Positions 25,812-49,187 of a stretch of 49,209 nucleotides of DNA are shown piece by piece (the stretch's first letter is position 1; each line of letters opens with the position of its first letter). The notes below the pieces were generated by a model. The model was not told where the DNA came from, did no database searches, and saw nothing but the letters and a program-made list of their open reading frames with translations. This stretch comes from Ruminococcus sp. (GTDB lineage Bacteria; Bacillota; Clostridia; Oscillospirales; Ruminococcaceae), in NCBI GenBank assembly GCA_017450925.1, contig JAFSSS010000044.1:1-49209 (forward strand). The letters run 5' to 3'. The position numbers and the translations under genes are program-made.

Positions 25812-25825
25812 TTTGTCACCTCGGT

Positions 25826-26848
25826 TTAATCACTAAGCTTTCTAAATTCATCAAGCCTCAGTTCACGTTTCAATTCTTCTTCGGTCGGCAAATAGGTTAA
25901 ATATTTTGAAGCAAATATCTGATTATTTCCTTCTGGCAAAGTATATTTCACAACCGCATCATTTTTCTCGGCACAAAGCACTATTCCGATCGGCGGATTG
26001 TCACCCTCGTTCATCAGTTCTCTTGTGTAGTAGTTGACATACATCTGCATCTGCCCTAAATCCTGATGAGTTAGCTTATCTGTTTTTAAGTCAAACAACA
26101 CAAAGCATTTGAGAATATAGTTATAGAACACAAGGTCGATAAAGAAGTCTTGTCCATCAAGAGTAAATCTTTTCTGCCTTGATACAAAGGAAAAACCGCG
26201 CCCAAGCTCCAGAAGAAATTGCTGCAGATGGTCGATAAGCGCTTGCTCCAGATCATTCTCATACACATGGGTGTCCGGCTTTATTTGCAAAAATTCCATG
26301 ATGTATGGGTCTTTTATGGCAAGCTCATATTCTGGTTTAGGCTCACTGGTCTGTATTTCAGCTGCCACATCTTCTTTATCCTTGCTTGAAAGAAGCCGCT
26401 GATAATACATGGTGTTGATCTGCCGTTCAAGCTGACGAACGCTCCACGCTGACTTTGCACATTCAGATGTATAAAAATCCCGTGCAGTTTTGTCAGTTAT
26501 ACGAATAAGCAGCCTATAATGAGACCAGCTCAATTCGGGACACAGTGTGTCCCGAATTGGATATGTCAGGTAGAACTTGCGCATTTTACGCAGGCTGCTT
26601 TCATCAAAGCCTTTTCCGAATTCAGAAGTAAGTCTTTCGGAAAGATATTTCATAAGGCTTTTGCCATAGTATGCCCTTTCGTTCTCACCACAGGCTTTGT
26701 ATATCTGTTCTCCGATCTCCCAATAGGCAATTACCATAGCTGCGTTAACAGCGGTATACACTTTGTTCTGTGCAGTTATTACGAATGAACGTATGGAATC
26801 ATATACGATCTCCGGTTTATTTGCTGTATGTTCTATCTGATTATCCAT
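25826..26848 (-). CDS. DUF1016/YhcG-family PD-(D/E)XK nuclease
   Basis: 340-aa cytosolic protein. The N-terminal helical domain (residues 20-160) carries AYWEIGEQIYK, FGKGFDESSLRKMRKFYLTYP and LSWSHYRLLIRI, typical of YhcG-like DUF1016 proteins. The C-terminal nuclease core is RFTLDGQDFFIDLVFYNYIL followed by CFVLFDLKTDKLTHQDLGQMQMYV, giving the D ... D-x-K residues. Such proteins travel with restriction systems and mobile elements and are presumed DNA nucleases; the exact role is not established. GGAGGTG precedes the ATG at 26848, and a strong promoter lies just upstream. It leads the transcript that ends with the recombinase. Base composition is clearly more AT-rich than the recombinase, suggesting separate origins. 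Confidence 0.9.
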   Translation of the reverse strand: MDNQIEHTANKPEIVYDSIRSFVITAQNKVYTAVNAAMVIAYWEIGEQIYKACGENERAYYGKSLMKYLSERLTSEFGKGFDESSLRKMRKFYLTYPIRDTLCPELSWSHYRLLIRITDKTARDFYTSECAKSAWSVRQLERQINTMYYQRLLSSKDKEDVAAEIQTSEPKPEYELAIKDPYIMEFLQIKPDTHVYENDLEQALIDHLQQFLLELGRGFSFVSRQKRFTLDGQDFFIDLVFYNYILKCFVLFDLKTDKLTHQDLGQMQMYVNYYTRELMNEGDNPPIGIVLCAEKNDAVVKYTLPEGNNQIFASKYLTYLPTEEELKRELRLDEFRKLSD

Positions 26849-26903
26849 AATGCACACCTCCAATGTTTTGTAATGGCAATGATGATTTATCCATACCAAT
26901 ATT

Positions 26904-26932
26904 ATTTTAGCATAGACTGTGCAGAATGTCAA
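26904..26932 (-). promoter_or_regulatory. Promoter of DUF1016-recombinase operon
   Basis: Minus-strand TTGACA (26927-26932), 17-base spacer, TAAAAT (26904-26909). Confidence 0.82.
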
Positions 26933-33759: not shown

Positions 33760-33877
33760 GTGATATCGGGGCGCTTTTTTGTACAGAAAAAATGTGCTAC
33801 TTTCATCATTGAGACAATAACATAAGCAAATGCTGTTCAACTTTTTCATTTACCCCTTGCCTTTCACGGATTTTTAG

Positions 33878-34984
33878 GGCAATACCGCACAATGCACACT
33901 AAAAACGAGATATATCCCTAAAGAGATATATCCCACCTGTTTCAGTTCCGCAGGGCACACTTTATCAAGCCAGCAAGTTTTTCTTGTCAGCCAGATAAAG
34001 ATTCGCCAGTGCGAATGTGATATTGAATTTGGCCTGCTGTTTTCGCAAGCCGCGATAGCGCGTTCGCCGCAATCGGAACAGCCGCTTCACGACTCTGAAT
34101 ACGTGCTCGACCTTCGAGCGAACAGTTGATTTTGCGAACTCTTCGATCTCAAATACCAGCCGGTCATTAGGCTCCAGCTTTTTCTTCGCTCCTCTGCGAC
34201 GGTTAATGTGATATTCTCTGCCCTCTTTTTTCTTCTCTTCTGAAATATGTTCTTCTGCATTCAGATAACCCGAATCCCCGTAAAGCTCATCTTCATCGCC
34301 ATCGATCACGTCATCGACAGCTTCAGTATCGTGTACATTTGCTCCTATCGCCTTGACGTGGTGAACAAGACCGGTGTCCTTATCAACACCGATATGCGCC
34401 TTGTAGCCGAAATGCCACTGGTTGCCTTTCTTGACAGAATGCGCTTCGGGGTCACGCTTCTTATCAGCATTTTTCGTAGAGGAGGGCGCAGTGATGAGGG
34501 TCGAATCGACTATAGTGCCCTTTTTGAGTATGAGGTTATGTTTGTTTAAAATCGACAGCACCTGAGCAAATATCTGCTCATCGATGCCGTTCTTGATCAG
34601 CAGATTTCTGAATCGGCCGATAGTATCGCCGTTGGGAACATAATCGGGAGATGATACGCCGCAGAAATCAGAGAAAGCGCGGCTGTCAAGTATCTCGTAC
34701 ATAACAGCCATATCTGCGAGGTCATAGAAAGACTGGAGAATATGGATCCTGAGCATCAGCTCGATTGGATACGGTTCCTGTCCGACTTTCCCTTCATAAT
34801 AAATCGGAGATATTATAGAAACCCAGTCTTGCCAAGGTATAAGAGAATCCATTTTCTCAAGGAACTGTTTTTTGTTGGTCTTTGCACTCTGGAACGAATC
34901 TCCGAAGATCGTGGTTTGAAGTTTACTTTTCATAGTTCTATTATATCATATTTTTGACTTTGGCGCAAGTTGTGCGGTGTTGCC
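33878..34984 (-). mobile_element. Complete IS5-family insertion sequence, 1107 bp
   Basis: The left end reads GGCAATACCGCACAATG and the right end, on the other strand, GGCAACACCGCACAACT: inverted repeats matching at 14 of 17 positions. The target TTAG is duplicated on both sides (33874-33877 and 34985-34988), the 4-bp Y-T-A-R type typical of IS5-family elements. Its transposase has an internal promoter on the minus strand: TTGCGC (34963-34968), 17 bases, TATAAT (34940-34945). Everything needed for movement seems present, so the element may be active. Confidence 0.93.
33965..34933 (-). CDS. IS5-family DDE transposase
   Basis: 322 aa. An N-terminal helical domain (DWVSIISPIYYEGKVGQEPYP) recognises the ends. 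The catalytic residues are Asp143 in GTIVDSTLI, Asp220 in YGDSGYLNAEE and Glu276 in RSKVEHVFRVVKRLF, the last being the Y/K-E signature region of IS4/IS5-like enzymes. The frame is intact, with normal length for the family. The ATG at 34933 has a weak binding site, which is usual for transposases. It cuts and pastes its own element through the 17-bp terminal repeats. Confidence 0.95.
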   Translation of the reverse strand: MKSKLQTTIFGDSFQSAKTNKKQFLEKMDSLIPWQDWVSIISPIYYEGKVGQEPYPIELMLRIHILQSFYDLADMAVMYEILDSRAFSDFCGVSSPDYVPNGDTIGRFRNLLIKNGIDEQIFAQVLSILNKHNLILKKGTIVDSTLITAPSSTKNADKKRDPEAHSVKKGNQWHFGYKAHIGVDKDTGLVHHVKAIGANVHDTEAVDDVIDGDEDELYGDSGYLNAEEHISEEKKKEGREYHINRRRGAKKKLEPNDRLVFEIEEFAKSTVRSKVEHVFRVVKRLFRLRRTRYRGLRKQQAKFNITFALANLYLADKKNLLA

Positions 34985-34996
34985 TTAGTGTATAAT
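34970..34996 (+). promoter_or_regulatory. Promoter split by the IS, possibly rebuilt from the IS end
   Basis: If the IS and one TTAG copy are removed, TTGCCT (33857-33862) lies 17 bases from TATAAT (34991-34996), a normal promoter for the gene at 35044. The IS now separates them. The nearest new -35 is TTGTGC (34970-34975) in the IS terminal repeat, with a poor 15-base spacer. Confidence 0.55.
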
Positions 34997-35043
34997 AGAA
35001 ATGAAGAATCATATAGTGACCTTTCATCACGGAGGTGATCTTG

Positions 35044-36642
35044 ATGGGAACATATCTAAATCCGGGAAACAACAGCTTCAAAAGAATAATCAGATCCGAC
35101 TATGTTGACAAGACCGGTCTTATCTCGCTCATCAACGAGCGTGTCGATACGGAAGACAGCCTTATTTGCGTCAGCCGTCCACGCCGTTTTGGAAAATCTT
35201 ATGCGGCACGAATGCTGTGCGCTTATTATGACTGCACCTGCGATTCCCATGAGTTGTTTGATAAATACACCATCGCAAAATCCGAAAGCTATGAGGAGCA
35301 TATCAACAAATATAATGTTATATACCTCGACGTGGCTTAATTCCTGTCTGAACTGAAACGCCAGAATCACAGCATAAAAGTTGTCGCTAACGATATTGCC
35401 CAGACGATACGTTATGAAATTGTCACCGACAGACCCGAGCTTGTGAATATCACAAGGGTGTCGGAGTGCCTTAGAAAATATGTTGAACTGACTGGAAAGA
35501 AATTTATCTTTATAATAGATGAATGGGACGTTGTGATACGTGAAGCGAAGAATGACAACACCACGCAGACAGCATACCTTAATTTACTGCGGGAATGGTT
35601 CAAAAACGGCAATTTCACCGTTGATGTTGTGACAGCTGCCTACATGACCGGAATACTGCCGATCAAAAAAGACGACTCGCAGTCTGCGATATCCGACTTT
35701 AAGGAATATCCGATATTGAACCCCCGTATGTTTGCAGAATACACAGGCTTTACCGATGCCGAGGTCCGTTCCCTTTGTGAGCAAAAAGGCATGGACTACA
35801 GCGAGGCTAAAAGATGGTATGACGGCTATTCCTTCAATAACGGACAGTCCATCTACAATCCGTTTTCGGTCATGATGTCTATTAAAAATGGAGAATTTGG
35901 CTCCTACTGGAAGCAGACCTCTGCCGCCGAAAATCTTATCACTTATATCAACTTTGAGCTTAACAATACTAACAGTGATCTGCAGACGAAAATCTTAAAG
36001 CTGATAGCTGGCGAGCATTTGGAGGTCGATGTCAGCGAGTTTAAAAATGATTTTTACTCATTTGATTCAGATGATGAGGTATTGACCTTGCTGATACATC
36101 TTGGATATCTTGCCTATGATAATACAACAAAACGTGCTCGCATTCCTAAAGAAGAGGTAAGGTTAGAATTCAACAAGCTGCTAAAAAACAAAAAGCACAC
36201 TAAATTCACCGATCTGATAATCAATTCCGAGAAGCTTCTCGCCGACACCCTTGCCGGAGACGGTGAAGCTGTTGCAGAAGCCATAAGAAAGATAAGAGAG
36301 ACAAACTACGCTCCGACTCATTATAACAATGAGCAATCGCTGAGATATACTATCAAGTTTGCGTATATCGTATGCATCGACAGCTATATGAAGGTAGAGG
36401 AGCTTCCCAGCGGCAAGGGCTATGCAGATGTGGTGTATATCCCGAAAAGCAGCACGGCACTTCCTGCATTGGTGATCGAGCTGAAATGGGAGGAGACTGC
36501 TGAGGCTGTGATAGATCAGATAAAGTCCAAGCGTTACCACTCGGTGCTTGAGGACTACTTTGGCGAGATCGTTCTGGTTGGTATCAATTACAACAGCAAG
36601 ACCAACGAGCATTCCTGCACTATTGAGAAGATCACAAAATAA
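35044..36642 (+). pseudogene. AAA-ATPase-like / PD-(D/E)XK protein with one in-frame TAA
   Basis: A 533-codon frame of the AAA-ATPase-like (DUF1703-type) family. Residues 1-98 have YVDKTGLISLINERVD and a P-loop-like SRPRRFGKSYAARML. TAA at 35338-35340 interrupts after IYLDVA, and the same frame goes on with FLSELKRQNHS. The middle has FIIDEWDVVIREAK (Walker B-like) and RWYDGYSFNNGQSIYNPFSV. The C-terminal PD-(D/E)XK part is GYADVVYIPKSSTALPALVIELKW. GGAGGTG precedes the ATG. With its promoter also split by the IS, the gene is most likely dead. These proteins are common accessory genes of gut bacteria, probably nucleases of unknown target. Confidence 0.88.
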
Positions 36643-36657
36643 TGGCATAGAAAAGGA

Positions 36658-36682
36658 GGGCGATCACGGTGTGGGATCGCCC
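36658..36682. terminator. Terminator-like hairpin between converging units
   Basis: GGGCGATC (36658-36665) and GATCGCCC (36675-36682) with a 9-base loop, followed by TTAAT. It lies between the plus-strand ATPase remnant and the minus-strand Wadjet operon. Confidence 0.7.
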
Positions 36683-36689
36683 TTAATCA

Positions 36690-36764
36690 TTATTCGTTTT
36701 TTATTTTGTGGTCGTATTTGAAATGGTAGTCGTTGTTTGCGAGTTTTAGGTAGATATTTCTCAT
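36690..36764 (-). CDS. 24-aa micro-ORF downstream of jetD
   Basis: MRNIYLKLANNDYHFKYDHK and four more residues. AAAGGAG lies 7 bases before the ATG, a better binding site than many in the window. The ATG overlaps the TAA of the fossil frame before it (TAATG). It could be a real micro-protein or the surviving start of a lost gene. It is basic, without a membrane segment. Confidence 0.35.
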   Translation of the reverse strand: MRNIYLKLANNDYHFKYDHKIKNE

Positions 36765-36928
36765 TAAAATGCTCCTTTCATCTGTTTCAACATTCCGCTA
36801 AGCATCTTTCCAAACTTGTCGGAATTTCCGACAGGTTCGTGCTCCTCAGCTTCAATATTAAAAACAAATATTCCAAGACAGGCATATCCGTCTCCTATTA
36901 GAGTGAGGAAATATCCTCTTCCATTTCG
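36764..36928 (-). pseudogene. Fossil reading frame overlapping the 3' end of jetD
   Basis: A 54-codon open frame with protein-like content (GDGYACLGIFVFNIEAEEHE, then NSDKFGKMLSGMLKQM) but no start codon until near its end. It overlaps jetD in another frame and ends in TAATG with the micro-ORF. It is probably the 3' part of a gene replaced by the Wadjet operon. Confidence 0.35.
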
Positions 36929-38178
36929 CTAATTAACAGTTCCTGATACCCCGCTTTTCCTTCGTTTCTTATTATCTCGCCCAGTATTCTCAGTTGTTCA
37001 TCATTCAGCTTATCGAGCTTTTTCATGCGGCTTTCGGAAATCGGTTCTGTCTTATCTATTATCAGATAATCATCAATTCTCATTCTCCAGATATGTATAT
37101 ATCCTTTATACCTTGATATTAGCTTGTCCGCTATCTGCAGGCCTTCCGGGTCGAAATCACCTGCGTAGTAAATGCTGCATCCACTTTTTACGAGCATATC
37201 AAGCAGCTTTATCATACACATTTTTAACTGTCCCGATGTACATATCATAGCATAACCTTTTTGCTTTACAACAGGCACGAGCGCCATGAACACAGCGGGG
37301 TTTTCAACCGCAAACACCGTTTTCTTATCGCAATCTGCACTGTTTATATTTGTGAGATTAGCCGACGAAAGCATTGCTATTTCACCGTTATCTGCAAAGG
37401 CCTTGAACGCATGATGTTCCACTCCGTTGTCATTATAAAGCCTTACACCTAACATCGCACAGGCACTCGTGATACTGTCGGGCTCTATGCCGAAATAGTA
37501 ATATATCTCCTTTATCTCTTCGGAGCTGTTCCCGGTCTTTTCTGATAAAAATCCAAATGCACTGATAAGCAGCTTTCCCGCTGTTTCCTTTTGATCGAAA
37601 TAATGAGAATTGCCCGTGATCTCGGCACTAAGCACAGGCAGACCGATAGGCTCAAAGTCACTTGTATATCTTGAATCGATCGCATTACACACGCTGCAGA
37701 TCAGCTTCTCTGCCTCATCGGGCGCATCACTATACTGTGCCATTACAGTTTTATAACCATATGATCTTGATGAAAACATCTCACCAAGCCATTTGCTGCA
37801 AGGCTTTCTATTGTATAATGTCAAAACGCCGTTTTCAAAAACTTTTTTCTGCTCAGATTTTTCAGCTGCATGCTCTGCATTGGTCTGCATTGTTATGCCA
37901 TAGTAGCTTTCAAGAACATCTTTTAGTGATACATTGCCGAAATTGCTCAGACCTTTTTCAAATGCTTTTACTGAAAAAGACAATTCAGGCGGTTCATAGC
38001 CTACCTTCGGACAGATTATCTCAGCAGCCGCATCACATTCTTCACGGGTCGCATTATTTATTGATACTTTTCCGCGGCTTTCACCATATGAAGAGAACTT
38101 GCTCTTTAGCTGTTCCATTATCCTGATATAGCGCTTGTCACGTTTTAGTATTTCTGCAATGCTTTTAGCATCATGCAT
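36898..38178 (-). CDS. jetD: Wadjet protein JetD (TOPRIM nuclease)
   Basis: 426 aa. The N-terminal part (residues 1-110) looks like DUF3323. The C-terminal part is a DUF2399-type TOPRIM domain related to the DNA-cleaving subunit of topoisomerase VI. Metal-site residues are visible: Glu in FAVENPAVF and the D-x-D pair in YYAGDFDPEGLQIADKL. In Wadjet systems JetD is the nuclease that cuts circular DNA after the SMC complex has extruded it. AAGGTGAT precedes the ATG, 9 bases after the jetC stop. It is the last gene of the operon. No truncation is seen. Confidence 0.88.
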   Translation of the reverse strand: MHDAKSIAEILKRDKRYIRIMEQLKSKFSSYGESRGKVSINNATREECDAAAEIICPKVGYEPPELSFSVKAFEKGLSNFGNVSLKDVLESYYGITMQTNAEHAAEKSEQKKVFENGVLTLYNRKPCSKWLGEMFSSRSYGYKTVMAQYSDAPDEAEKLICSVCNAIDSRYTSDFEPIGLPVLSAEITGNSHYFDQKETAGKLLISAFGFLSEKTGNSSEEIKEIYYYFGIEPDSITSACAMLGVRLYNDNGVEHHAFKAFADNGEIAMLSSANLTNINSADCDKKTVFAVENPAVFMALVPVVKQKGYAMICTSGQLKMCMIKLLDMLVKSGCSIYYAGDFDPEGLQIADKLISRYKGYIHIWRMRIDDYLIIDKTEPISESRMKKLDKLNDEQLRILGEIIRNEGKAGYQELLISEMEEDISSL

Positions 38179-38187
38179 GGTATCACC

Positions 38188-41100
38188 TTATTCTACTAAT
38201 TCTTTGACCTTTCCGTCCCATTCGTATCTGATGACTGTTATAAAGTCGGAGTCCTTTTCGTGTCTGAGTTCGGCAATGTTCAATTTGGGCACCGTCTTAA
38301 AGCAGCCCCACAGCGACTGGGAATTGATGATATATCCAAAGCCAAGCTTTTCGAGCAGGTCAAACATCTCGCTGATATTGCTGTCATCAACTCCGGCAAA
38401 AGCTTCGTCAAGCGCCAATATCATCGGTGCTCCCTCACCGGTCTTTTGGTACTGTGCGGCGACTGCTGCAAAAAGCGGTATGTATACAGACATTGCCCGC
38501 TCGCCTCCGCTAAAGCTGCTGAATCTGCTGTTGGTTAGCTCTCTGAAGCTGTCACTGCCCGACTCCTTGAAATTCAGCTTGAACTCAAACCAGTTCCTGT
38601 AGTCAAGTACCCTTCGGATAAGTTCGGAAAAGCTTATATCCTCGCCCTTCTCTTCAAGGACTCTTTTCTCATGCTCTATCTTGCTTCTGAAATGATCTGT
38701 CAGCTTTTCTATATCGTCAGACCTTATCATATCTCTATTCATTCGCAGCAGCTTATTGAGCTGTTCATAAGGCAGTTCATTTTCTCCGAGGTCCTTCTTA
38801 GCAGTCCAGCTGAGCGAAAACGACTGCCCCTGCGAGGTTTCTATGCCCTTCATCAGAGAAGACATTGTTTCTATCCAACGCCTGCTGTCATCAACTTTTA
38901 CTATCAGCTTTCTGCTAAGGATACCAAGCAGGATATCCTTAAACATCTTTTGCTCCTCTTCTTTCATAAGGAGCTCATCTTCTTCGATAACTGTTTTGAT
39001 ACGTTCTGTAAACTCGGCCGGCGTTATCCTGCTGCCGTTCTGCCAGAGGAGAGTTATTTTTTTCCTTGCTCGGATAGTGTCACTGTCTTCGTTCTCAAAC
39101 ATAGTTTCAGACATAAGCCTGTAATCTGCTGTTGAATCGGTATTGTGTCCCTGAAAAGCCTTTTCAAGCCTATCCTGAATGACAGATATCTCCCTCTTGT
39201 CATCACCTGCGATGATCTCGGTTTTTGACATTTCTGCGCACTGCTTTAGCGTTTTTTCGTCTGCCTTGATAACAAACCCAAGGTCAAGCTCTTCCTTGAA
39301 TATGGCTGCCAGTTTGTTTTCTTGCTCTATCAGATCAGTAAGTTCTTTGGTTATATCCTCAAGATAGGCACTTGCATACTGCTTTTCCAACTCAGCTTTT
39401 GAAATAGTTTTTTTATGATCATTGATCTTTCCGCTAGAGCTTTCGATCAATTCGATCAGTTCATCAGCTCTTCTGGCAATATCAATATTTTCCGGGCTTT
39501 CCAGAAATTCCGTACAAAGCCGTATTATCTCTTCATATTCATGAACAGCTCTTTCAAGCTTCTTTATATCAGCATCTATCTCGTCGATATCGCTATCCAG
39601 ATCATCAATAGAATCATCTATCTGACTGAGCAGCTGATTTTCAAAATTGAGGCTTTTATTCAGATCAATAATACTGCATACAACTGCCTCAAAATTGCTG
39701 AGATCTGATAAAGCGTCCGCAAACACCTGACGCTTTTTATCATACTGAGGATACCTGCTGCATATCTCATCGACCTTTTGAGATGCATTGAGCCACAGCT
39801 GTTTTGCCAAAGACAGTTTTTCTTCTGCTCTTTTATAAATACTGTCAGCATTTTTCAGTTCCAGCCTTGCTGTGTTAAGAAGGTCCAACGATGCATTTAT
39901 GTTTTCCGTTGAAGGCCGTGCAGCATATTCTTTATTTAACTCGCTTATCCTGCTGTCTATCTCAGACTTTTTCCTCAAAGCATCATCATAGGCTTCTTTT
40001 GCGGCTTCCTGTTGCTCTCTGAGCATTGCTATCTGTCTTTCACGGTAAAGTCTCCTGTTTTCAGCACCTATATAGCTTACCTGCCGACCGTTTGCATAAC
40101 CTGCCGTTATGCCATATTCATAGTACCCGTCAGACTCAATCTTAACTATACCGTGAAATTTTGACAGTATAGCTCTGACCTCGTCTTTAAACTCGCAGTC
40201 TTCCGATATCTCAAAGTATGGTGAATCAATATCACCTGCCTTATTATCGAGAACGAACCAGCTGTCATCATAGTCCTTTATGATCTCCTTGGCAGCAGAG
40301 ATATCCTTTTGCTTGATAATAAGGGCATCAAGCAGTCCTGTATCTGTTAATGCAGCCTCAAGTTTTATCCGCATTTCTTCCGAAACAGCTGGTGCAAAAT
40401 CTATACATTCATACAGTGCCTTGAATGCTATACCGCTTTCGGATAACGCCTTTCTTGCAGCTTCTTTAAATTCATTCCTAGGAGGAGCCGGCTCATCTGC
40501 TGATAATAACTCCTCCAGCTGCTTCGCCGTATCATCTAACGCCGCTTTTCGTTCATTGCATTCCGCCTTAGCTTTATTTAACAATTTGCTCAGATCATTT
40601 TTCAAATATCCATAATGTGCAAACATAGCTTCATGATAGCTGCTGCCGCCTTGAGCCTCATATTTTGAAATAATGTCAGTGAGCTTATCCCTGAAAGCTT
40701 CGTTGATGGTAAACTCCGCATTTTCCTTTGCCGCTCTGTATATCGCTTCTATGATGATATCCTTTTGCTCATTCAGCTGTTCCTCGGCGGCGCCTGCTTC
40801 TGCTTTCTTGTCTGCACGGACTTTAGCAGCTTCGGAAAGCTCTTTTTCAGATTCATCATATTTTTCTCTGGCCTTGCTCTGTTCGTCAAACTTATCCATT
40901 ACCGCCCTAAGCTCATTTAAAAAACGCTGACACTCTTTTCGGTAGCTGTCAGCTTCCAATGCTTTTCCGTCTTTTAGTTCTCTGTAAAAATAGTCATAAA
41001 AAGGATAGCCCGAATCGCTGTATTCAGCTGCTTCTTTCAAGCCTTTGTCTATATCATATTTGATACCATCTATTTTTGAAATACGCTCTTTTTTGTCAAT

Positions 41101-42237
41101 GTATTTTTTATTCTGCTGTCCTTTTTTACTGTTTAAGCTGACCTCTTTTTTCTCTTTTGCCGAGATATTTTCATTAAGCTTTTCTATACTGTCGTTACGC
41201 CTTTTGACTTGCTCCTCAATACCGCTCATATCAAGAGAATCCTTTTCTCTTTGCAGATCTGCGAGCTTTATTTCCTCTGCTTCCAGTAATTTTGCAGTTT
41301 CTTTTATAGTCTTTTCCGATTGCCCTATATCGCTCTTTTTGCTGTCATGATCTTTTTGCTTATCACTCACTTCCGAGGCTTTAGCAAGGTATCTTTTCGC
41401 CTTTATCCAAAGCAGATATCTGTTATATCTGTCATACTCATCAGCGATATACCTTACTTCACGCATAGCCTTATTGGCTTTTTCTATCGTCTCCTGTATA
41501 TTCTCGATCTTTGACATTGCATCTGTCATAGGACGCAGGTCTTCATCGGTAAGGGTCTGAAGCGAATCATTTAAAATATTATAGAGCTGCTCGGGCTTAA
41601 GGTTTTCTTTTGATGACAGCTTTGAAGATCTTGTTTGTATCAGAACATTAGTCAGCCTGTCAAAGTCACCGATATTGTTTTTTGTTATGCCGAATATCTC
41701 ATAAGCTACCATTTCCTTATATTCGGCATGCTTGCCTGCAACGACCTTCTCAATAAAAATATTATCGTCGCCAAGGAGTTTTTTTAGGGTTTTGGGATCG
41801 TGAGGTATCAGCTGACTGCCGGCATCTATGTATAACTCAAAGCCGTCGCCTATCCTTGTTCCGTCTTTAAGACAAAATCCCCAAGCTCTGAAATCTCCGC
41901 CCTTTTTGGCACGCATACCTATCCCGATAGTCTTGTACTGCCCGCTCTGGGGCTTTGTAAACTCCAGCCAGATATAGCCGGTGTTTTCCTTTTTGTCACT
42001 GTCTGCACCGCCTATCAGGTAATAATCCATTTTGCGTTCCTTGCCTCCAAACGGGTCAAGTCTTGAAGGCAGTCTGTCTCCGTCAAGGATATATGGGATA
42101 AAGCTCTGGGTAGTTATTGATTTCCCCGAACCGTTGGCACCTCTTAGCAAAAGTCGACCGCCGTCAATAGAGAACTCCTCCACATCATATACCCAGAAAT
42201 TCACAAAGCCGAGCCTGTTCATCTGCCACCTTTCCAT
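38188..42237 (-). CDS. jetC: Wadjet protein JetC (SMC-like ATPase)
   Basis: 1349-aa SMC/MukB-like motor. Walker A is GANGSGKS at residues 33-40 after FSIDGGRLLLR. Two very long coiled coils (about 250-560 and 730-1010) flank a hinge region. The C-terminal head has the signature SFSGGERAMSVYIPLFAA and Walker B PMILALDEAFAGVDD. It matches the TIGR02680-type proteins. Dimers extrude DNA loops using ATP; small circular plasmids are recognised and passed to JetD. AAGGAGGG lies before the ATG, which starts 3 bases past the jetB stop. Both ATP-site halves are intact, so the motor should be active. Confidence 0.93.
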   Translation of the reverse strand: MERWQMNRLGFVNFWVYDVEEFSIDGGRLLLRGANGSGKSITTQSFIPYILDGDRLPSRLDPFGGKERKMDYYLIGGADSDKKENTGYIWLEFTKPQSGQYKTIGIGMRAKKGGDFRAWGFCLKDGTRIGDGFELYIDAGSQLIPHDPKTLKKLLGDDNIFIEKVVAGKHAEYKEMVAYEIFGITKNNIGDFDRLTNVLIQTRSSKLSSKENLKPEQLYNILNDSLQTLTDEDLRPMTDAMSKIENIQETIEKANKAMREVRYIADEYDRYNRYLLWIKAKRYLAKASEVSDKQKDHDSKKSDIGQSEKTIKETAKLLEAEEIKLADLQREKDSLDMSGIEEQVKRRNDSIEKLNENISAKEKKEVSLNSKKGQQNKKYIDKKERISKIDGIKYDIDKGLKEAAEYSDSGYPFYDYFYRELKDGKALEADSYRKECQRFLNELRAVMDKFDEQSKAREKYDESEKELSEAAKVRADKKAEAGAAEEQLNEQKDIIIEAIYRAAKENAEFTINEAFRDKLTDIISKYEAQGGSSYHEAMFAHYGYLKNDLSKLLNKAKAECNERKAALDDTAKQLEELLSADEPAPPRNEFKEAARKALSESGIAFKALYECIDFAPAVSEEMRIKLEAALTDTGLLDALIIKQKDISAAKEIIKDYDDSWFVLDNKAGDIDSPYFEISEDCEFKDEVRAILSKFHGIVKIESDGYYEYGITAGYANGRQVSYIGAENRRLYRERQIAMLREQQEAAKEAYDDALRKKSEIDSRISELNKEYAARPSTENINASLDLLNTARLELKNADSIYKRAEEKLSLAKQLWLNASQKVDEICSRYPQYDKKRQVFADALSDLSNFEAVVCSIIDLNKSLNFENQLLSQIDDSIDDLDSDIDEIDADIKKLERAVHEYEEIIRLCTEFLESPENIDIARRADELIELIESSSGKINDHKKTISKAELEKQYASAYLEDITKELTDLIEQENKLAAIFKEELDLGFVIKADEKTLKQCAEMSKTEIIAGDDKREISVIQDRLEKAFQGHNTDSTADYRLMSETMFENEDSDTIRARKKITLLWQNGSRITPAEFTERIKTVIEEDELLMKEEEQKMFKDILLGILSRKLIVKVDDSRRWIETMSSLMKGIETSQGQSFSLSWTAKKDLGENELPYEQLNKLLRMNRDMIRSDDIEKLTDHFRSKIEHEKRVLEEKGEDISFSELIRRVLDYRNWFEFKLNFKESGSDSFRELTNSRFSSFSGGERAMSVYIPLFAAVAAQYQKTGEGAPMILALDEAFAGVDDSNISEMFDLLEKLGFGYIINSQSLWGCFKTVPKLNIAELRHEKDSDFITVIRYEWDGKVKELVE

Positions 42238-42239
42238 TT

Positions 42240-43355
42240 TTATCCCTCCTTATAGTCTTTAGGATAACGTCCTGCTGTCTTGTACACTCCGTCACGCAGA
42301 TAATAGCCGTCTTCGCAGGGCTCGATCAGCTGCCAGTCTGCCATGTATTTTTTCACAAGAGAGGTAAATCTTTCATCAGTCATCTCTCTGAGCTCCTTGC
42401 TCAGTCCTTTGAAAAAATACTCCTTACATTCTAAAATAAAAATATCTAGCTCGGCAGCGCTCATTATCATTTTTGAGTAACCGCCAAAGGAGTATTTCTC
42501 TCTCACTTTGCTGCACATCAGCGCTATAAACCCTGAAATAGACTTGTCCGACGGGTGAACACTGCCAAACACCTCATCTTCGCTTACCATTAAAAATGCT
42601 GCACCGTTATGTATATCAAGCCTTCCTCCCACATACTTATCAAGGTATCTGTACACCGACTGCCTTTGATTTTTCATGTATATACTATCCATATCATCAT
42701 TACTGTCCCAGTACATCGCAGGCTGCAAAAGCAATCTTCTGTATACCCTGTGCGTCCTTGCCATACCTGTTTCATCATCGGTATAAAGAGTGTCCCTGCT
42801 CTCAAAATCATGATAGTCTGTGTAGTCACTTATAACGCTGTCGTGGTTTACCGATAAGTATTTGGAGAGCCCCGTATTCTCATAAAGTATCTCTTTGCTC
42901 TGATCCCTCTCCACTGCTTCGATAGAGCCGTCTGATATTCTGAGCATATTCATCTCCTCGGCAAATTTAAGCACCTTGACCAAAGACTTTCTGTCGGCAA
43001 ATCTGGTAAGATCAATGTCTGCATAGCCGTCAATAATCTTTTCCATGCTCTCAATAAGCTCGGAAAGCAGGAAATGAGTACCGTCCATTTTGTCATCAAG
43101 ATATATCAGCAAGGCGCAAAGCAGCATATATTCATTTATGCTGTCAAATCTCTGTATCCCCATGAACGGGTGCGCTTCGGCAGGCAGCTTTTCGAGCTTA
43201 ATCAGCTTGTTATTCACAAAGAGCTTCCAGCCCACAAATTCGGTCAGAAATTTCTTCATATTGCTGTCAATGCTTCTTTTTATCTTATAGTAATCGGAAC
43301 TATCATTATCACGCACTATCCAGAAGCTGTCAAGCAGCTCTGTAAATTCTTCCAT
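42240..43355 (-). CDS. jetB: Wadjet protein JetB (KITE/MukE-like)
   Basis: 371 aa, of the DUF2398/TIGR02678 type. It opens MEEFTELLDSFWIVRDND and has paired winged-helix-like regions with ISDYTDYHDFESRDTLYTDD and ARTHRVYRRLLLQPAMYWDS. Such proteins are KITE subunits that bind the kleisin JetA and regulate the SMC motor, as MukE does for MukB. GAGGAG lies 7 bases before the ATG at 43355, and this site is inside the end of jetA. The longer TTG start upstream is less likely. Its ATG begins 2 bases after the jetA TAG, implying coupled translation. Confidence 0.86.
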   Translation of the reverse strand: MEEFTELLDSFWIVRDNDSSDYYKIKRSIDSNMKKFLTEFVGWKLFVNNKLIKLEKLPAEAHPFMGIQRFDSINEYMLLCALLIYLDDKMDGTHFLLSELIESMEKIIDGYADIDLTRFADRKSLVKVLKFAEEMNMLRISDGSIEAVERDQSKEILYENTGLSKYLSVNHDSVISDYTDYHDFESRDTLYTDDETGMARTHRVYRRLLLQPAMYWDSNDDMDSIYMKNQRQSVYRYLDKYVGGRLDIHNGAAFLMVSEDEVFGSVHPSDKSISGFIALMCSKVREKYSFGGYSKMIMSAAELDIFILECKEYFFKGLSKELREMTDERFTSLVKKYMADWQLIEPCEDGYYLRDGVYKTAGRYPKDYKEG

Positions 43356-43356
43356 A

Positions 43357-44841
43357 CTAATTCTCCTCAAACTCAAACGTATAGTCCGGCATTTTCAGCA
43401 TTCCGTCGGAAAATTCAATAATGATCTTCAGCTCGCCGCCTGTCATCTTAAAGCTGCGACCAAAATCTGTGATGCCTGTGCGGTGCTTATTCTGGTTAGC
43501 AAAAGATACCCAGTTAAGTATTATCGGTCTGATCTCCTCGGGGATCGTTTGCCCCACAAATTCGCTCAGTATCAATTTATTTTCCTTGATATAGCTGCTA
43601 AGAAGCTCCTGCTCTTTTTTTATTTTCTCGATATATTCCTGCCTCTTGACTGCCTTTTCAAGATCTCTGTTTGCAAAGCCGGACGATCTTACTCTCGGGG
43701 TATATGTTCTTGTGCGGGGAGTCACCTCAAACATCTGAGGCCTAAGCTCGCTCGCATTTTCAAAAATACTGTCCGTTTCTCTCGGAGCGTTGAATTTATA
43801 ATGACTCACACCCATTGCTCCGAAAACATGAGCCGACAGGCAATGCGCCTCTTCGATATCCCTGCATTTTCCGAACATCTCAAGGTACTTGTAGTAATCC
43901 AGTCTTTTGCTGACTGCACTATTCTGAAGCTGCATCAATATCATCGCATTATTTATCATTCTGCGAATTATCTCATTGGTGTACTCTGCCAGCATTTCGC
44001 TGTTTGAAATCCGGTCATCTGTATTTACAAACCAGCCGTACAGTCCGCTCCATTGATTATGTATCCTCTCGGCAATATCCTCTTTGCTGACAGCACCATT
44101 CAGACTTGGCAGCTCGCTTTCATACTCTATAATTTCGGGTATCACTTTATTAAGGAACGTTTCCCGCAGTGCTTTCAGCATCTCTTCGATCTGAGAGGAA
44201 AACTTAGGCAGATACATAATAAATTCCCTGAGGTAGCTTATGAATTTATCCTTGTATATCAGAAAGTCCATTGATTTGAGCCGCTTCTCACCCTCTACCG
44301 AATAAAAAGCGTGAAGATAATCCGAAAAATTGCTGCTAAGCCTTTGAAAATCATTTTGCAGATTGTTCCATTCATCGTGCATATCTTTCGGTTCCATTGC
44401 GTCAATATAATCTCTGAAATATACAAGAGAATCATTTATCCTGTCAAACAATGCACTTGATAATGAACTGACCTGACTGTGCTTGCCTTCAAGCTCAATT
44501 ACCATTCTCTCAATGATTATTGATTCCTCGGTGGGTGAATAGCGGTATATCTTGTTTTTATATTCCTCGATCGTGCTGACCTCTCTCGGGTCCTGCATCG
44601 GAACAACATTTCCCCACTGGGTCAGCTGAGAAAGAGCCTGTTTAACATCTTCTATACTAAGGCTGTTAAACCCGTCATTTTCCTTTAAATGCTTTAAAAT
44701 GCTTCCTGCACTCAGCTGTGAATTATACGCTTCCTTCTCCTTATACAGCACCCGCATAATAGATCGGTAAAGCTGACATTTATCGGCAGTTAAATAAGCA
44801 GCCGGCCTTACAGAATTCATCTTGTCAACATCGATCTTCAA
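43357..44841 (-). CDS. jetA: Wadjet protein JetA (kleisin/MukF-like)
   Basis: 494 aa, of the DUF2397/TIGR02677 type. The N-terminus has YLTADKCQLYRSIMRVLYKE and QLTQWGNVVPMQDPREVST, a winged-helix segment. The middle is helical, and VRSSGFANRDLEKAVKRQEY starts a charged C-terminal part. It should act as the kleisin that bridges the two JetC heads and carries JetB. I prefer the TTG at 44841, which has AAGGTG 6 bases upstream, over the GTG at 44850, which overlaps that site. It ends in TAG. First gene of the operon. Confidence 0.87.
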   Translation of the reverse strand: MKIDVDKMNSVRPAAYLTADKCQLYRSIMRVLYKEKEAYNSQLSAGSILKHLKENDGFNSLSIEDVKQALSQLTQWGNVVPMQDPREVSTIEEYKNKIYRYSPTEESIIIERMVIELEGKHSQVSSLSSALFDRINDSLVYFRDYIDAMEPKDMHDEWNNLQNDFQRLSSNFSDYLHAFYSVEGEKRLKSMDFLIYKDKFISYLREFIMYLPKFSSQIEEMLKALRETFLNKVIPEIIEYESELPSLNGAVSKEDIAERIHNQWSGLYGWFVNTDDRISNSEMLAEYTNEIIRRMINNAMILMQLQNSAVSKRLDYYKYLEMFGKCRDIEEAHCLSAHVFGAMGVSHYKFNAPRETDSIFENASELRPQMFEVTPRTRTYTPRVRSSGFANRDLEKAVKRQEYIEKIKKEQELLSSYIKENKLILSEFVGQTIPEEIRPIILNWVSFANQNKHRTGITDFGRSFKMTGGELKIIIEFSDGMLKMPDYTFEFEEN

Positions 44842-44871
44842 AGATATCACCTTCTTTTCAGCTTTGTTTAC

Positions 44872-44899
44872 ATTATATCACACTTCATTGTTTTATCAA
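44872..44899 (-). promoter_or_regulatory. Promoter of the Wadjet operon
   Basis: Minus-strand TTGATA (44894-44899), 16-base spacer, TATAAT (44872-44877), with a short leader. No internal terminator is seen across jetA-jetD. Confidence 0.75.
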
Positions 44900-44950
44900 T
44901 GTATTTTTTTGGACAGCTGCGGTAACGGTTCAATATTGTGACATAGTATT

Positions 44951-46240
44951 TTAAACTACACTTTCATCAAGCAGAAACTCCGTAAGCCCCACATTCAGTA
45001 CCCCATTGTCATCATACCACCGCTTGCGTATATCCCTGCGAACTATGACCTTCGGGAAGGAATCCCCGATGAGGGCAAATGGCCGCAACTCCTGCTGGGT
45101 CTTATCTTCATCGGGCAGGGCAAATGCCGACTGGATATAGACCTTCTTCCCGCCCTTTGATGCGATAAAATCTATCTCCCGGGCAACCTTGGAGTAGCTG
45201 CCGCTTGCAGTCTTTTCGTTGGAATAAACCACGCCAACATCTACCGAGAATCCCCTGATAATGAGCTCATTATAGATGATATTCTCCATAATGTGGGTCA
45301 TCTCCTGCTGACAGAAGCCTATGCGGGCATTACGAAGCCCGATATCCTCGCAATAATACTTGTAGGGATACTCGAAATACTTGCGACCCTTGACATCGTA
45401 GCGCTTTGCCTCGCTGAACAGGAATGCGTCCTCCAGATGTGCGATATAGGCGGAAATGGTGTTCTGCGCGATGTTCTCCCCGGTTTTAGATCGGAGAGTG
45501 TCAGCTATCTTCTTCGGATTGGTCAAAGACCCGACAGACGAACATAGCAGGTCAAGCAGCTGACCAAGAACGTCCTCCCGCTCGATCTTCTTGCGTTCGA
45601 CTATGTCCTTGATATAGACCTCTGAGAACAACGAGGAAAGATAATTTGTCCTTGCGGTATCGTTGGGGCGGGACAGCACCAGCGGCATTCCGCCGTAGAA
45701 AGCATAGTCCTCGAACGCATCTTCTTTGTCACCGCCTACCGCCGAATAATACTCCGCAAAGCTGAGAGGGTGAACGTGTATTTCGTCGCTGCGCCCCCGG
45801 AACTCGGTCAGGATATCCTTGGAAAGCATTTTCGAGTTGCTTCCGGTCACATACACATCAAGGTTCGGCAGCGAACGAAGGTCATTGAGCGCATCATAAA
45901 AGGTTATTTTCTTCCCTTCGGGATTGTAGGGATTCTTCACTTCGTCAGACATCTGTATCTCATCGATGAACAGATAAAACTGCCCGTTCTGTCCCTCAAC
46001 CCTGCTGCGGACATACTCCGCCAATGCCAGCGGATCACGGTACTTGATATCGTGGGTCAGGTCAAGCTCTATGGATATGATATTGTCAGCGGCAACGCCC
46101 TGATCTATCAGATAGTTCTTGAACAGTACACTCAGCAGATAGGACTTTCCACAACGACGAATCCCGGTTATCACTTTCACCTGTCCATCCCACATATAAC
46201 TGATGATCTGCTGCAAATATCTGTCTCTTTTGATCTCCAT
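44951..46240 (-). CDS. AAA ATPase with DUF4143 domain
   Basis: 429-aa ATPase of the AAA_14-DUF4143 type. Walker A is ITGIRRCGKSYLL (residues about 24-36), Walker B FYLFIDEIQM, sensor DVYVTGSNSKML, and an arginine-rich EFRGRSDEIHVHPLSFAEYY. The C-terminal half (residues about 200-429) is DUF4143, with a PD-(D/E)XK-like AREIDFIASKGGKKVYIQSAF. These are accessory proteins of unknown target, frequent in gut bacteria. GAGGTG precedes the ATG, and it has its own strong promoter. It ends about 50 bases before the Wadjet promoter, so it is a separate unit in the same direction. Confidence 0.92.
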   Translation of the reverse strand: MEIKRDRYLQQIISYMWDGQVKVITGIRRCGKSYLLSVLFKNYLIDQGVAADNIISIELDLTHDIKYRDPLALAEYVRSRVEGQNGQFYLFIDEIQMSDEVKNPYNPEGKKITFYDALNDLRSLPNLDVYVTGSNSKMLSKDILTEFRGRSDEIHVHPLSFAEYYSAVGGDKEDAFEDYAFYGGMPLVLSRPNDTARTNYLSSLFSEVYIKDIVERKKIEREDVLGQLLDLLCSSVGSLTNPKKIADTLRSKTGENIAQNTISAYIAHLEDAFLFSEAKRYDVKGRKYFEYPYKYYCEDIGLRNARIGFCQQEMTHIMENIIYNELIIRGFSVDVGVVYSNEKTASGSYSKVAREIDFIASKGGKKVYIQSAFALPDEDKTQQELRPFALIGDSFPKVIVRRDIRKRWYDDNGVLNVGLTEFLLDESVV

Positions 46241-46289
46241 TCTATCACCTCATTGAAAACTATGGCGAGTTTTGATACTACTTTTCATT

Positions 46290-46319
46290 ATTATACCACA
46301 ACAACGATGGTTTAGTCAA
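46290..46319 (-). promoter_or_regulatory. Promoter of the DUF4143 ATPase gene
   Basis: Minus-strand TTGACT (46314-46319), 18-base spacer, TATAAT (46290-46295). Confidence 0.8.
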
Positions 46320-46355
46320 GTGTTATTGTCGATAAATGACGAGATAATATAAAAA

Positions 46356-46386
46356 GGCAACACCGCACTTTTTATACGGTATTGCC
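46356..46386. repeat. 31-bp pair of IS5-type terminal repeats
   Basis: GGCAACACCGCAC, then TTTTTAT, then ACGGTATTGCC. The two ends face each other and match the left and right ends of the IS at 33,878. It looks like an element reduced to its tips, or a minimal MITE. As RNA it folds to a hairpin and could act as a terminator for the zeta gene. Confidence 0.55.
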
Positions 46387-46503
46387 TTATACTCCAATTA
46401 TCAAAACAATAAAGTCTACCACTCAAGTCCTGTAAATATGTGCTTTTTAGAATATGTTTATGAGAACAGAATGTCGTTTATCATATATCATAAACAATCG
46501 TTA

Positions 46504-47115
46504 CTAACTTCCGCTTGTGATATTCAGATCCTTGTGTGCCATATTGCTTATTCCGGTAAGGAGCTCAATATCATAACGATCCCAGAATTCACTTTCATCA
46601 AAGTAGAATTCTGTTTTTCTTTTCTTGAATATTCTGAACGGCACATCGCCCGAGTTATCATAGATGTGGCATATGTCGCATACGGGAATAACCTCTTTAA
46701 TAAGGTCAAGCGAACGGGCGTGCCTGCTGATGATCTTATCCTCCGGAACGCCATGCCCTCCCTGACCGACTCTTGAACGCACACGCATAACATTGATCTC
46801 AGGGATCGCAGTAATAATATAAATACATTTAATGAAATAACCTTGCTCTTTAGCCCTTTTCAGCAGCTTCAGATTTCTGTCAGTCGAAAGCACTGTCTCA
46901 AAACAAAAATCTTTTCCTGCGGATAAATGCTCCTCTCGCATTTGCTCGGCCTTTCGTGCCGCTTCAATGTCAGAGCAAAGATTGCTTCGCTTTATATCAT
47001 CGGCATTTATATAATCCATATCGAGGTGGAAAAGCTGAGTAACTGTACTTTTACCGGAACCGTTCGGCCCAGCAAATACCATTATCTCAGGTTTCCGGTT
47101 TATCGGCCTGCTCAC
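46504..47115 (-). CDS. Zeta-toxin-family kinase
   Basis: 203-aa P-loop kinase. Walker A AGPNGSGKST at residues 15-24 is the family mark. NADDIKRSN and FCFETVLSTDRNLKLLKRAKEQG fit zeta toxins, which phosphorylate UDP-N-acetylglucosamine and stop cell-wall synthesis. MRVRSRVGQGGHGVPEDKI holds further conserved Arg residues. GTG at 47115 is the likely start: GAGGGTGAG lies 5 bases upstream. It overlaps the 3' end of the small upstream gene by 29 bases, a usual toxin-antitoxin arrangement. Some family members are not toxins, so activity is a family inference. Confidence 0.85.
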   Translation of the reverse strand: MSRPINRKPEIMVFAGPNGSGKSTVTQLFHLDMDYINADDIKRSNLCSDIEAARKAEQMREEHLSAGKDFCFETVLSTDRNLKLLKRAKEQGYFIKCIYIITAIPEINVMRVRSRVGQGGHGVPEDKIISRHARSLDLIKEVIPVCDICHIYDNSGDVPFRIFKKRKTEFYFDESEFWDRYDIELLTGISNMAHKDLNITSGS

Positions 47116-47311
47116 TGTATCTCACCCTCTGTACATTTTCCTTAACAATAGTCTCTGTCCCGTCGGGATTTAAAATATAAAGGCAGCAGCGCTTTGGGTC
47201 ATACCTTACGATGTCTATACCCATAGCTTTCTGCTTCTCAATAGCGAGGCGCACCGCTGTCTGAACTCTTCCGACAACTTCTTCATCTGTCAATTCTCTC
47301 TTAACACTCAT
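47087..47311 (-). CDS. Small partner (putative antitoxin) of the zeta kinase
   Basis: 74-aa soluble protein starting MSVKRELTDEEVVGRVQTAV, helical at first, then RYDPKRCCLYILNPDGTETI, a probable beta hairpin. GAAGGAGG lies before the ATG, and the gene overlaps the zeta kinase by 29 bases. By position it is the antitoxin or regulatory partner. I do not recognise a classical epsilon antitoxin fold, so the function is inferred from order alone. Confidence 0.72.
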   Translation of the reverse strand: MSVKRELTDEEVVGRVQTAVRLAIEKQKAMGIDIVRYDPKRCCLYILNPDGTETIVKENVQRVRYSEQADKPET

Positions 47312-47349
47312 AGCAGATACCTCCTTCTCAATGGCTTTGGTTTAAAGGT

Positions 47350-47378
47350 ATTATAACATATTAAGGGGGAAATGTCAA
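47350..47378 (-). promoter_or_regulatory. Consensus promoter of the zeta kinase operon
   Basis: Minus-strand TTGACA (47373-47378), 17-base spacer, TATAAT (47350-47355). Both hexamers are perfect. The remaining AT-rich gap (47379-47599) shows no gene. Confidence 0.88.
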
Positions 47379-47599
47379 TTGACTGAACTTTTACTAACTT
47401 GCAATACATAATGGTTGACAGCAACAATAAAAAACAGACAACTATTTCAAATTCGGCATTTAATCTACCGTTTTCTATGCAAAATATGAATATTGCCACA
47501 TATTCCCTATATCCAAATTAAAGATTTTATATGTCTATTTATCAGATTTTATAATTACAACAAGTAAATATCGACAAGTATTTTAACATAAAAATTCCC

Positions 47600-47848
47600 T
47601 CAAATCCCCACCTGCGCCGATATGTAAAAAACCTCGCAATGTCCGCATTTACGCACATTTGCGCGGGTGAAGCTCCATTGCTGTTCTGCACTCATCATAT
47701 TGACCATCTGACCGCCTACGGAGCCAGCCTCACGGGAGGTGAGGTCGCCATTGTAGCCCTGCTTAAGGTTTACGCCGACCTCGCTGGCTGCTTCCATTTT
47801 GAATCTGTTGAGGGTCTCTCTGCCCTGCTGTGTTGTGATGCCTTTCAT
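47600..47848 (-). CDS. Alpha/beta-type small acid-soluble spore protein with extended tail
   Basis: 82 aa. The core LNRFKMEAASEVGVNL then GYNGDLTSREAGSVGGQMVN matches alpha/beta SASPs, which coat spore DNA and protect it. The MEAASE stretch is where the germination protease GPR cuts in this family. The usual protein ends soon after AEQQ. Here it goes on with WSFTRANVRKCGHCEVFYIS, including a C-x-x-C pair, and stops at 47600. AAAAGGAG precedes the ATG at 47848. The tail may be a late extension through loss of the original stop. It indicates a spore-forming ancestry. Confidence 0.85.
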   Translation of the reverse strand: MKGITTQQGRETLNRFKMEAASEVGVNLKQGYNGDLTSREAGSVGGQMVNMMSAEQQWSFTRANVRKCGHCEVFYISAQVGI

Positions 47849-47859
47849 TTCTGACACTC

Positions 47860-48105
47860 CTTTTGATTTTTTTCGGGTTTGCTTTAGTAGTTTGTGCCGT
47901 GTCAGTATTTTTATTATAGGAAATTTTTTCATCAGCTTCAGAACAAAAACGGCAGTGACCGCCCACGCGCTGTGCTTGCCACGGAGGCCGCAGCGGCGAC
48001 TGCGCAATTCCGCCTTTTGCAAGTAAGCAAAGAACGTCAGCTTTTGTTTGAAGACGGGGCTGAACTTTGCTTTGTAACCGCCAACCACCCCCAGCCCACA
48101 ATTAG
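47860..48105. other. Gene-free region upstream of the spore protein gene
   Basis: GC-rich, with codon-like but repeat-type sequence; open frames on both strands lack binding sites. The minus strand has TATAAT near 47,920 that might serve the spore gene; no sigma-G promoter could be recognised with confidence. The sequence has the look of a dispersed Clostridial intergenic repeat. Confidence 0.35.
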
Positions 48106-48109
48106 AAAA

Positions 48110-48135
48110 GCCGAGGATTCCAATTGAACCTCGGC
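48110..48135. terminator. Hairpin between repeat region and IS66 remnant
   Basis: GCCGAGG (48110-48116) and CCTCGGC (48129-48135) with a 12-base loop. No clear U-run follows, so terminator function is uncertain. Confidence 0.45.
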
Positions 48136-48199
48136 CATGATCATCAGTGCCATCTACTGTACTTTACTACCAACCACTGCAACTATACCTTACCGGCAA

Positions 48200-48865
48200 T
48201 TACTTCACCTCACTGTAGCACTTCCTGCAATACGTCGGAAGTGCTATGCTCCACGGCATTACCGATTTAAGCTGCTCATTAGTCGGAGTCGTTCCCCACT
48301 TGGGCAATATGGTTAAAAGATAAAGAAGGTATCCGTAAACATCAAGACTGTTTCTTTTGGCTGTCTCGATGATGCTCATAACAGCCGCACTTGCATCTGC
48401 GCCCTTTTCGGTGTCGCTAAACAGTCTTAGCAGCTGCGCTGCACGACCGAAATCTTTTCTGTTTATGACATAGGCTTGACCGTTCTCTCGGCAAGATTGT
48501 TGGTCATTTCCACATTGGGATCGTCAAGAAACAGGTATAGCTTTTCTTTCTGATTTTGGGCATAAGTGACCGCCTTGACAAGGTTAGAGCCCTTGCCAGG
48601 TCGAAGGGTATTTATGATCTCATATGCTTTGTCGAGCAGCGGCTTTACTTTTTCCTGCCGCATTTCAAGTATCTGCTATCTTGTGTATTTAGCCTCCTTT
48701 GCTGACTGCTCGAAGTCTGCCGCCTTACCGATCAAAGCAACTATCTGTGCCGAGGGACAGGTGGTATCTCCTTCGGGTATGCAGTCGAAGAAATATCTGC
48801 GGCAATGTGCCCAGCAGCCGGCACTTTCATAATCTCCGCTGCCGTAGGACTGCATTCCGTCCGGT
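48200..48865 (-). pseudogene. Decayed IS66-family transposase, C-terminal part
   Basis: Three pieces of one transposase are readable on the minus strand. The first (about 48865-48679) has DGMQSYGSGDYESAGCWAHC, the IS66 region before the last catalytic residue, and ends at TAG (48676-48678). The second (48675-48463) has NQKEKLYLFLDDPNVEMTNN followed by LAERTVKP. After a frame change, the third (to 48200) has IETAKRNSLDVYGYLLYLL and ends in YCRKCYSEVK. The N-terminal two thirds are absent. It is dead. Confidence 0.88.
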
Positions 48866-49187
48866 TTGTTTCCCTTTTGTGATTACATAATAACACGCAA
48901 ATACGGCCTTTTCAATAAGCAGATAAGAGACTTTTCGCTGCATAAGCGGCAGAAATGCGGCGGTGTGGTGTATAAGCAACACGGCTTATAAAAACTGTTG
49001 AGGATCTCCGGGTGATTTACTGCTCATTTTCTGTCTGAATGAAAGCTTTGAACTTATCAAAAAAATCTTTTTTTGAGTTTTACAGATTCTTGTAAAGGTA
49101 CTGTAAAGAAAGGTATGTTATTATGGGATCACAGCAAAGGGAAAGACCTTTGAAACTAAAAAATCAAATTGAAAAGGAGAAATCAAA
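48866..49187. other. AT-rich intergenic region before the last gene
   Basis: No gene. A run of T at about 49,060 and a TATTAT near 49,120 with no good -35 were noted. It ends with a clear ribosome binding site. Confidence 0.4.

Follow-up and report, generated by a model that had tools for sequence, protein, structure and literature searches.

Four minus-strand genes of the Wadjet family

The window analysed here, a stretch of 49,209 nucleotides of Ruminococcus sp. DNA, carries four minus-strand genes that a preliminary description had taken for a complete Wadjet-type defence operon, and it raises the question of whether these genes indeed form a full Wadjet system, to which type they belong, and whether the copy is likely to work. 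We found four intact open reading frames that are tightly packed on the minus strand as had been described, at 36898-38178 (426 aa), 38188-42237 (1349 aa), 42240-43376 (378 aa) and 43357-44850 (497 aa). With the start codons proposed below, they make up a nearly gap-free stretch (36898-44841) transcribed in the order jetA, jetB, jetC, jetD:

43357..44841, minus strand: jetA, kleisin-type subunit, 494 aa from its likely start; PADLOC JetA2 489 bits, PF09660, TIGR02677, structural relative 9qe0_E
42240..43355, minus strand: jetB, KITE-type subunit, 371 aa from its likely start; PADLOC JetB2 367 bits, PF09661, TIGR02678, structural relative 9qe0_D
38188..42237, minus strand: jetC, SMC ATPase motor, 1349 aa; PADLOC JetC2 1101 bits, TIGR02680, structural relative 9qe0_A
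36898..38178, minus strand: jetD, TOPRIM nuclease, 426 aa; PADLOC JetD2 407 bits, PF11796 and PF09664, JetD_C PF09983

We consider it about 92% probable that this stretch is a complete type II Wadjet (JetABCD) operon, predicted to encode a loop-extruding, plasmid-cutting complex. The best PADLOC profile is the type II one for each of the four proteins, whereas type I profiles give much weaker matches to JetC (53.7 bits) and JetD (45.5 bits) and no listed match to JetA or JetB. The four genes follow each other in the A-B-C-D order of type II systems within a single operon. The Pfam domains are DUF2397 for JetA, DUF2398 for JetB, SbcC_Walker_B for JetC, and DUF3323 plus DUF2399 for JetD, with E-values of 2e-108 (PF09660), 1.4e-79 (PF09661), 9.5e-23 (SbcC_Walker_B), 1.4e-32 (PF11796) and 7.7e-29 (PF09664). 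Placement in the DUF2397/DUF2398/DUF2399 branch rather than in type I, as had been suggested, is thus what PADLOC, NCBIfam and Pfam all indicate.

The search against TIGR02677-02680 that had been proposed as a check returned a match for all four proteins. The kleisin-like and KITE-like subunits are recognised above cut-off, JetA by DUF2397 (363.7 bits, cut-off 28.5) and TIGR02677 (229.9 bits, cut-off 165.85), and JetB by DUF2398 (268.3 bits, cut-off 26.9) and TIGR02678 (155.3 bits, cut-off 124.65), and JetC likewise exceeds the threshold of TIGR02680 (592 bits, cut-off 462.85). JetD aligns with TIGR02679 over its full length (3.4e-52) but falls below the strict cut-off of that model (177.8 bits against 196), while PF11796 and PF09664 are both above theirs.

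Strong relatives of known structure exist for three of the subunits in PDB entries 9qe0 and 9qe1, with E-values against 9qe0 of 7.8e-143 for JetC (chain A), 4.6e-70 for JetA (chain E) and 8.6e-45 for JetB (chain D). We take these entries to be the type II complex of Neobacillus vireti LMG 21834 (nvJET); a literature search for 9QE0 found no paper naming the entry. JetC, JetA and JetB match this complex over nearly their full length, hinge region included, although the window proteins have diverged from it in sequence. By sequence, JetD has no solved relative in the PDB, one search giving none and another a single chance match at 0.65. Profile assignments of all four families, a solved homologue and the conservation of key residues described below therefore uphold the reading of the locus as a complete four-gene Wadjet. 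Gene content, order, type, motif integrity and kinship with a solved complex are established for this operon, which is an ordinary new example of an already well-described kind of Wadjet, with no unusual part in this copy.

Predicted active sites of the motor and the nuclease

The positions expected to carry the enzymatic activities of JetC and JetD are the following:

42118..42141, minus strand: JetC Walker A motif GANGSGKS, residues 33-40
38500..38511, minus strand: JetC signature motif SGGE, residues 1243-1246
38404..38409, minus strand: JetC Walker B pair D1277-E1278
37303..37305, minus strand: JetD E292
37150..37158, minus strand: JetD D341-x-D343
36940..36942, minus strand: JetD E413

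The 1349-aa SMC protein has its Walker A, signature and Walker B motifs intact, as had been noted, and these are nearly invariant among relatives. G33, N35, G38, K39 and S40 are identical in 79/79 aligned rows (the window plus 78 relatives), and the signature and Walker B residues are retained in 78/79, the remaining row having a gap in each case.

The assignment of JetD as a TOPRIM nuclease finds support both in its two Pfam domains and in its acidic residues. E292, D341 and D343 are each identical in 77/77 rows, window included, and E413 is found in 76 of them, with one gap. When the profile of the window JetD and its relatives was aligned with one built from five type I JetD proteins (L101-L105) by hhalign, the match extended over 239 columns with a probability of 95.2, an E-value of 2.6e-8 and 16% identity, and placed E292 on the EN motif, D341/D343 on the DID motif and E413 on the EQE motif of type I JetD. 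PADLOC assigns these five proteins, which come from related genomes, to type I with best scores of 340-581 bits; a four-row version (L102-L105) gave an E-value of 2.6e-9 with the same residues aligned. From the literature on these families, we take E292, D341, D343 and E413 to be the presumptive catalytic residues. A low-scoring match to topoisomerase VI subunit A (20.6 bits, far under the cut-off of the model) covers JetD residues 272-355.

A frameshift or a missing catalytic residue in jetC or jetD had been named as a reason to doubt the operon; the residues are all present, and no frameshift is seen in the one assembly at hand. The window proteins do depart from their relatives at a few otherwise near-invariant positions, most clearly in JetC, where Q1138 replaces a leucine found in 78/78 relatives, and also at JetC V1115, JetA V117, P215 and R316, and JetD P181. 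None of these is among the named catalytic residues, and they may reflect assembly errors or mild changes. No near-identical copy that would confirm the sequence was seen among the best 80 of 392 relatives, where the closest JetC is 45% identical. Such departures, mainly JetC Q1138 and JetA P215, together with a nearby insertion sequence (IS) copy, IS66 remnants and a neighbouring gene in pieces, would fit a decaying or inactive copy whose frames are complete but which suffers from harmful substitutions or lack of expression. Against this stand the four open frames with their ribosome sites and the retention of the catalytic residues, and we regard decay as unlikely. A working type II Wadjet remains our preferred reading.

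Start codons and regulatory signals

Two of the start codons in the open reading frame list are probably misplaced. For jetA, the listed GTG at 44850 falls within a Shine-Dalgarno-like sequence, AGAAGGTGAT, so that the likely start, on the basis of the ribosome site, is the TTG at 44841. For jetB, the listed start is the TTG at 43376, and the likely one is the ATG at 43355, which lies behind GAGGAGAA just beyond the jetA stop; with this start, the 20-nt overlap between jetA and jetB vanishes. The starts of jetC (ATG 42237) and jetD (ATG 38178) are preceded by good ribosome sites. Two further signals may flank the operon:

44872..44899, minus strand: promoter-like TTGATA-16-TATAAT ahead of jetA, matching the consensus at 11 of 12 positions
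36658..36682, minus strand: possible terminator, an 8-bp hairpin followed by TCCTTTTCT

The preliminary description had assigned a single promoter to the four genes. A consensus-like site does lie ahead of jetA, but it is a sequence match of a kind that is frequent in this region (53 promoter-like matches in 34000-49000, against 29.5 expected), and its role as the one promoter of the operon is less secure. As for the hairpin (-15.8 kcal/mol), 48 of 500 61-mers drawn at random from the region are as stable, and the hairpin is absent from the pattern-scan list, so we propose it as a terminator only tentatively.

Proposed mode of action

Most study to date has dealt with type I Wadjet, according to a portion of PMC10586767. 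This type comprises MksBEFG of Corynebacterium glutamicum, whose JetD is assigned to it in PMC10586767, ecJET of E. coli (PMC12647877) and, to judge from a comparison with Bacillus cereus Q1, presumably jetABCD of Clostridium cellulovorans. All share with the window operon the plan of an SMC protein, a kleisin, a KITE protein and a TOPRIM nuclease. In the accounts excerpted from PMC12287153 and PMC10586767, JetABC motors extrude DNA, and on a small circle they meet and stall, whereupon JetD cuts. As for type II, excerpts of PMC12647877 describe the N. vireti complex as cutting naked circular DNA in vitro, as unable to bypass obstacles, and as having a hinge that lacks the usual channel; the available portions of PMC11612967 and PMC10123090 add nothing further on this type.

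By analogy with these relatives, JetC dimers would assemble with the kleisin JetA and the KITE protein JetB into an ATP-driven, loop-extruding motor. Two such motors would reel in the entire small circle and then stall, and the TOPRIM nuclease JetD would cut the DNA, so that small plasmids would be lost and the large chromosome spared. From what is known of relatives, we infer extrusion, stalling, cleavage and plasmid exclusion, as well as expression in the host. Because a profile of the JetC hinge region built from the window and its relatives matches the JetC of 9qe0 (E 1e-50), the hinge properties of nvJET may apply to the window JetC too, which may thus have a channel-less hinge and be unable to bypass obstacles. 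With this operon, a fragmentary assembly contributes a further intact type II Wadjet whose type is clear; more members of this type aid comparison, existing knowledge being left unchanged, and the maintenance of small plasmids is predicted to be difficult in this lineage.

Relatives, distribution and history

A scan of genome contigs with an alignment of JetC gave 392 relatives, of which the best 80 were kept, and very near genomes were possibly omitted; a JetB search of genome contigs found no relatives. All four jet genes are present in 73 of these best 80 loci, and in 73/73 they lie on one strand in the order A-B-C-D. Six of the seven loci without the full set are at a contig end (L024, L025, L046, L079, L080 and L081). 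Two loci deserve mention in their own right: L035 (14035-23617) has type II JetA-B-C and no jetD frame despite 9.6 kb of contig past jetC, and L046 (1-4782, from a Lachnospiraceae assembly) has a single frame running from a JetB-like part into JetC, which is either a JetB-JetC fusion or a sequence error.

For residue conservation, rows covering more than 85% of the length of the window protein were taken from the 80 loci (70 for JetA, 77 for JetB, 78 for JetC and 76 for JetD). The long fused frame of L046 is among those for JetB; L064 and L083, in which the JetC frame is split, contributed no JetC row. Of the available relatives, 54 of 76 went into alignment A3 and 57 of 78 into alignment A4, and L017 and L018, which are partial JetA matches, served as search targets only.

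FastTree trees of JetA, JetB, JetC and JetD, built from 69 shared rows with the window among them, all place it in the same ten-row group with support of 1.0, and the four genes therefore appear to have travelled together. Branching within this group is less certain, one JetA node having support of 0.002. Among the best 80 of 392 relatives, the nearest come from assemblies titled Ruminococcus, Clostridia or Oscillospiraceae, some of them of rumen origin. Four type II operons from Ruminococcus or Clostridia assemblies (L020, L021, L022 and L075) have the same gene order and cluster with the window in each of the four trees, with identities to the window proteins of 42-45% for JetC, 54-58% for JetB and 48-52% for JetA. 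They come from other genomes, have other flanking genes as far as compared, and their own JetC genes have a GC content of 36-46%. The window JetC is 44% identical to that of L021, judged to belong to another family of the order, against 32% to that of L086 (Gemmiger sp. An194), judged to belong to its own family, and the gene tree thus departs from the host tree.

The distribution is sparse. JetC exceeds the cut-off in 1/16 genomes of the genus, two others giving weak matches of about 100 positions; JetA was found in 4/150 relatives, the window genome included; and full-length JetA occurs in 6/394 genomes drawn from the order, window again included, with short pieces in two more. Several genomes are incomplete, and these counts are therefore lower bounds. 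This patchiness also bears on whether the complex might serve chromosome maintenance, as a condensin of the MukBEF/MksBEF kind, instead of defence, since the composition of SMC, kleisin and KITE subunits is common to both and the PADLOC JetC profiles carry a MukB-like description. The presence of the JetD nuclease gene argues against a condensin, as does an occurrence so limited within the genus, of whose 16 genomes only 6 are at least 90% complete, and within the order, and such a role is extremely improbable.

As a type II Wadjet, the operon is patchy and was probably acquired horizontally, as suggested by its GC content (42%, against 55% in the first 24 kb of the window), its occurrence within the genus and a closest relative that belongs to another family; its history is most simply explained by horizontal gain. 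In G010 and G014, the two other genomes of the genus, a type I JetD (L103 and L102, respectively) is encoded close to the weak JetC match, which lies within a frame of about 1075 aa; both probably carry a type I Wadjet instead. In its own genome, whose assembly is 66.64% complete, we found no second Wadjet, the single matches to PF09660, PF13558 and PF09983 all belonging to this operon.

We also considered carriage by a phage or small plasmid and rejected it: there is no relative in viral contigs and no near DNA match in plasmids. Distant JetC matches occur in 21 plasmid records; a single match spans at least 80% of the query, and among the matches listed (15 of 21) all records have at least 148,985 bases.

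The AAA_14-DUF4143 neighbour

Immediately upstream of the operon lies a gene that PADLOC reports as a defence candidate:

44951-46240: AAA_14-DUF4143 gene, upstream neighbour of the operon; PADLOC 'PDC-S01'

A gene 86% identical to it adjoins the type II Wadjet of L027, which has a second, 48% identical relative on its other side, and more distant relatives flank the Wadjet in L077 (34%) and L051 (25%). Such associations might point to an accessory that is only loosely tied to the type II Wadjet systems of Clostridia, which we find very unlikely, or even to a fifth component, which we rejected. Relatives occur anywhere in the locus in 5/80 cases (L020, L027, L051, L056 and L077), with flanks of differing length, and within about 2 kb of the operon in 3/80 (L027, L051 and L077), their orientation and side varying. 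Moreover, another DUF4143 gene is present elsewhere in the same genome, and 6/14 control genomes have a member of the family. We judge the gene to be an independent, common one.

Surroundings and mobile elements

From about 24 kb on, the window has a GC content of 45% and a mosaic gene content, and resembles a defence or mobile island. Near the start of this low-GC stretch, a large serine recombinase adjoins a YhcG-type (DUF1016) nuclease (24111-26932, minus strand). The recombinase may be the sign of an integrated element; the repeats found in the window include no recognisable pair of attachment sites. The stretch also holds genes for a carbon-nitrogen hydrolase, an aldo/keto reductase and a small acid-soluble spore protein. 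No known RNA family reaches its gathering threshold in the window.

Beyond the jetD end of the operon, an AAA-ATPase_like/PD-(D/E)XK gene is found in two pieces on the plus strand (35035-35340 and 35443-36642), which cover positions 4-87 and 126-199 of the PF09820 profile, and represents either a broken gene or an assembly error. On the other side, the AAA_14-DUF4143 gene has a Zeta-toxin-like P-loop kinase (46504-47115, minus strand) upstream of it. Three short frames at 48200-48855 (minus strand) are what remains of an IS66-type transposase, with PF03050 matched twice and PF13817 once.

A search for repeats that might bound the island gave short, imperfect ones. One inverted pair (34972-34996 / 46344-46368) brackets the operon and corresponds to the end of an IS. 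This 15-base IS end, AAGGCAACACCGCAC, and its near copies (at most 3 mismatches) occur nine times in the window, against 1.22 expected. Its presence on both sides of the operon is no proof that the stretch moves as a unit. Copies are found at both ends of an IS at 33876-34986 (transposase 33965-34933), in a 35-base hairpin (46354-46388) upstream of the AAA_14-DUF4143 gene, and as a lone copy at 187-201.
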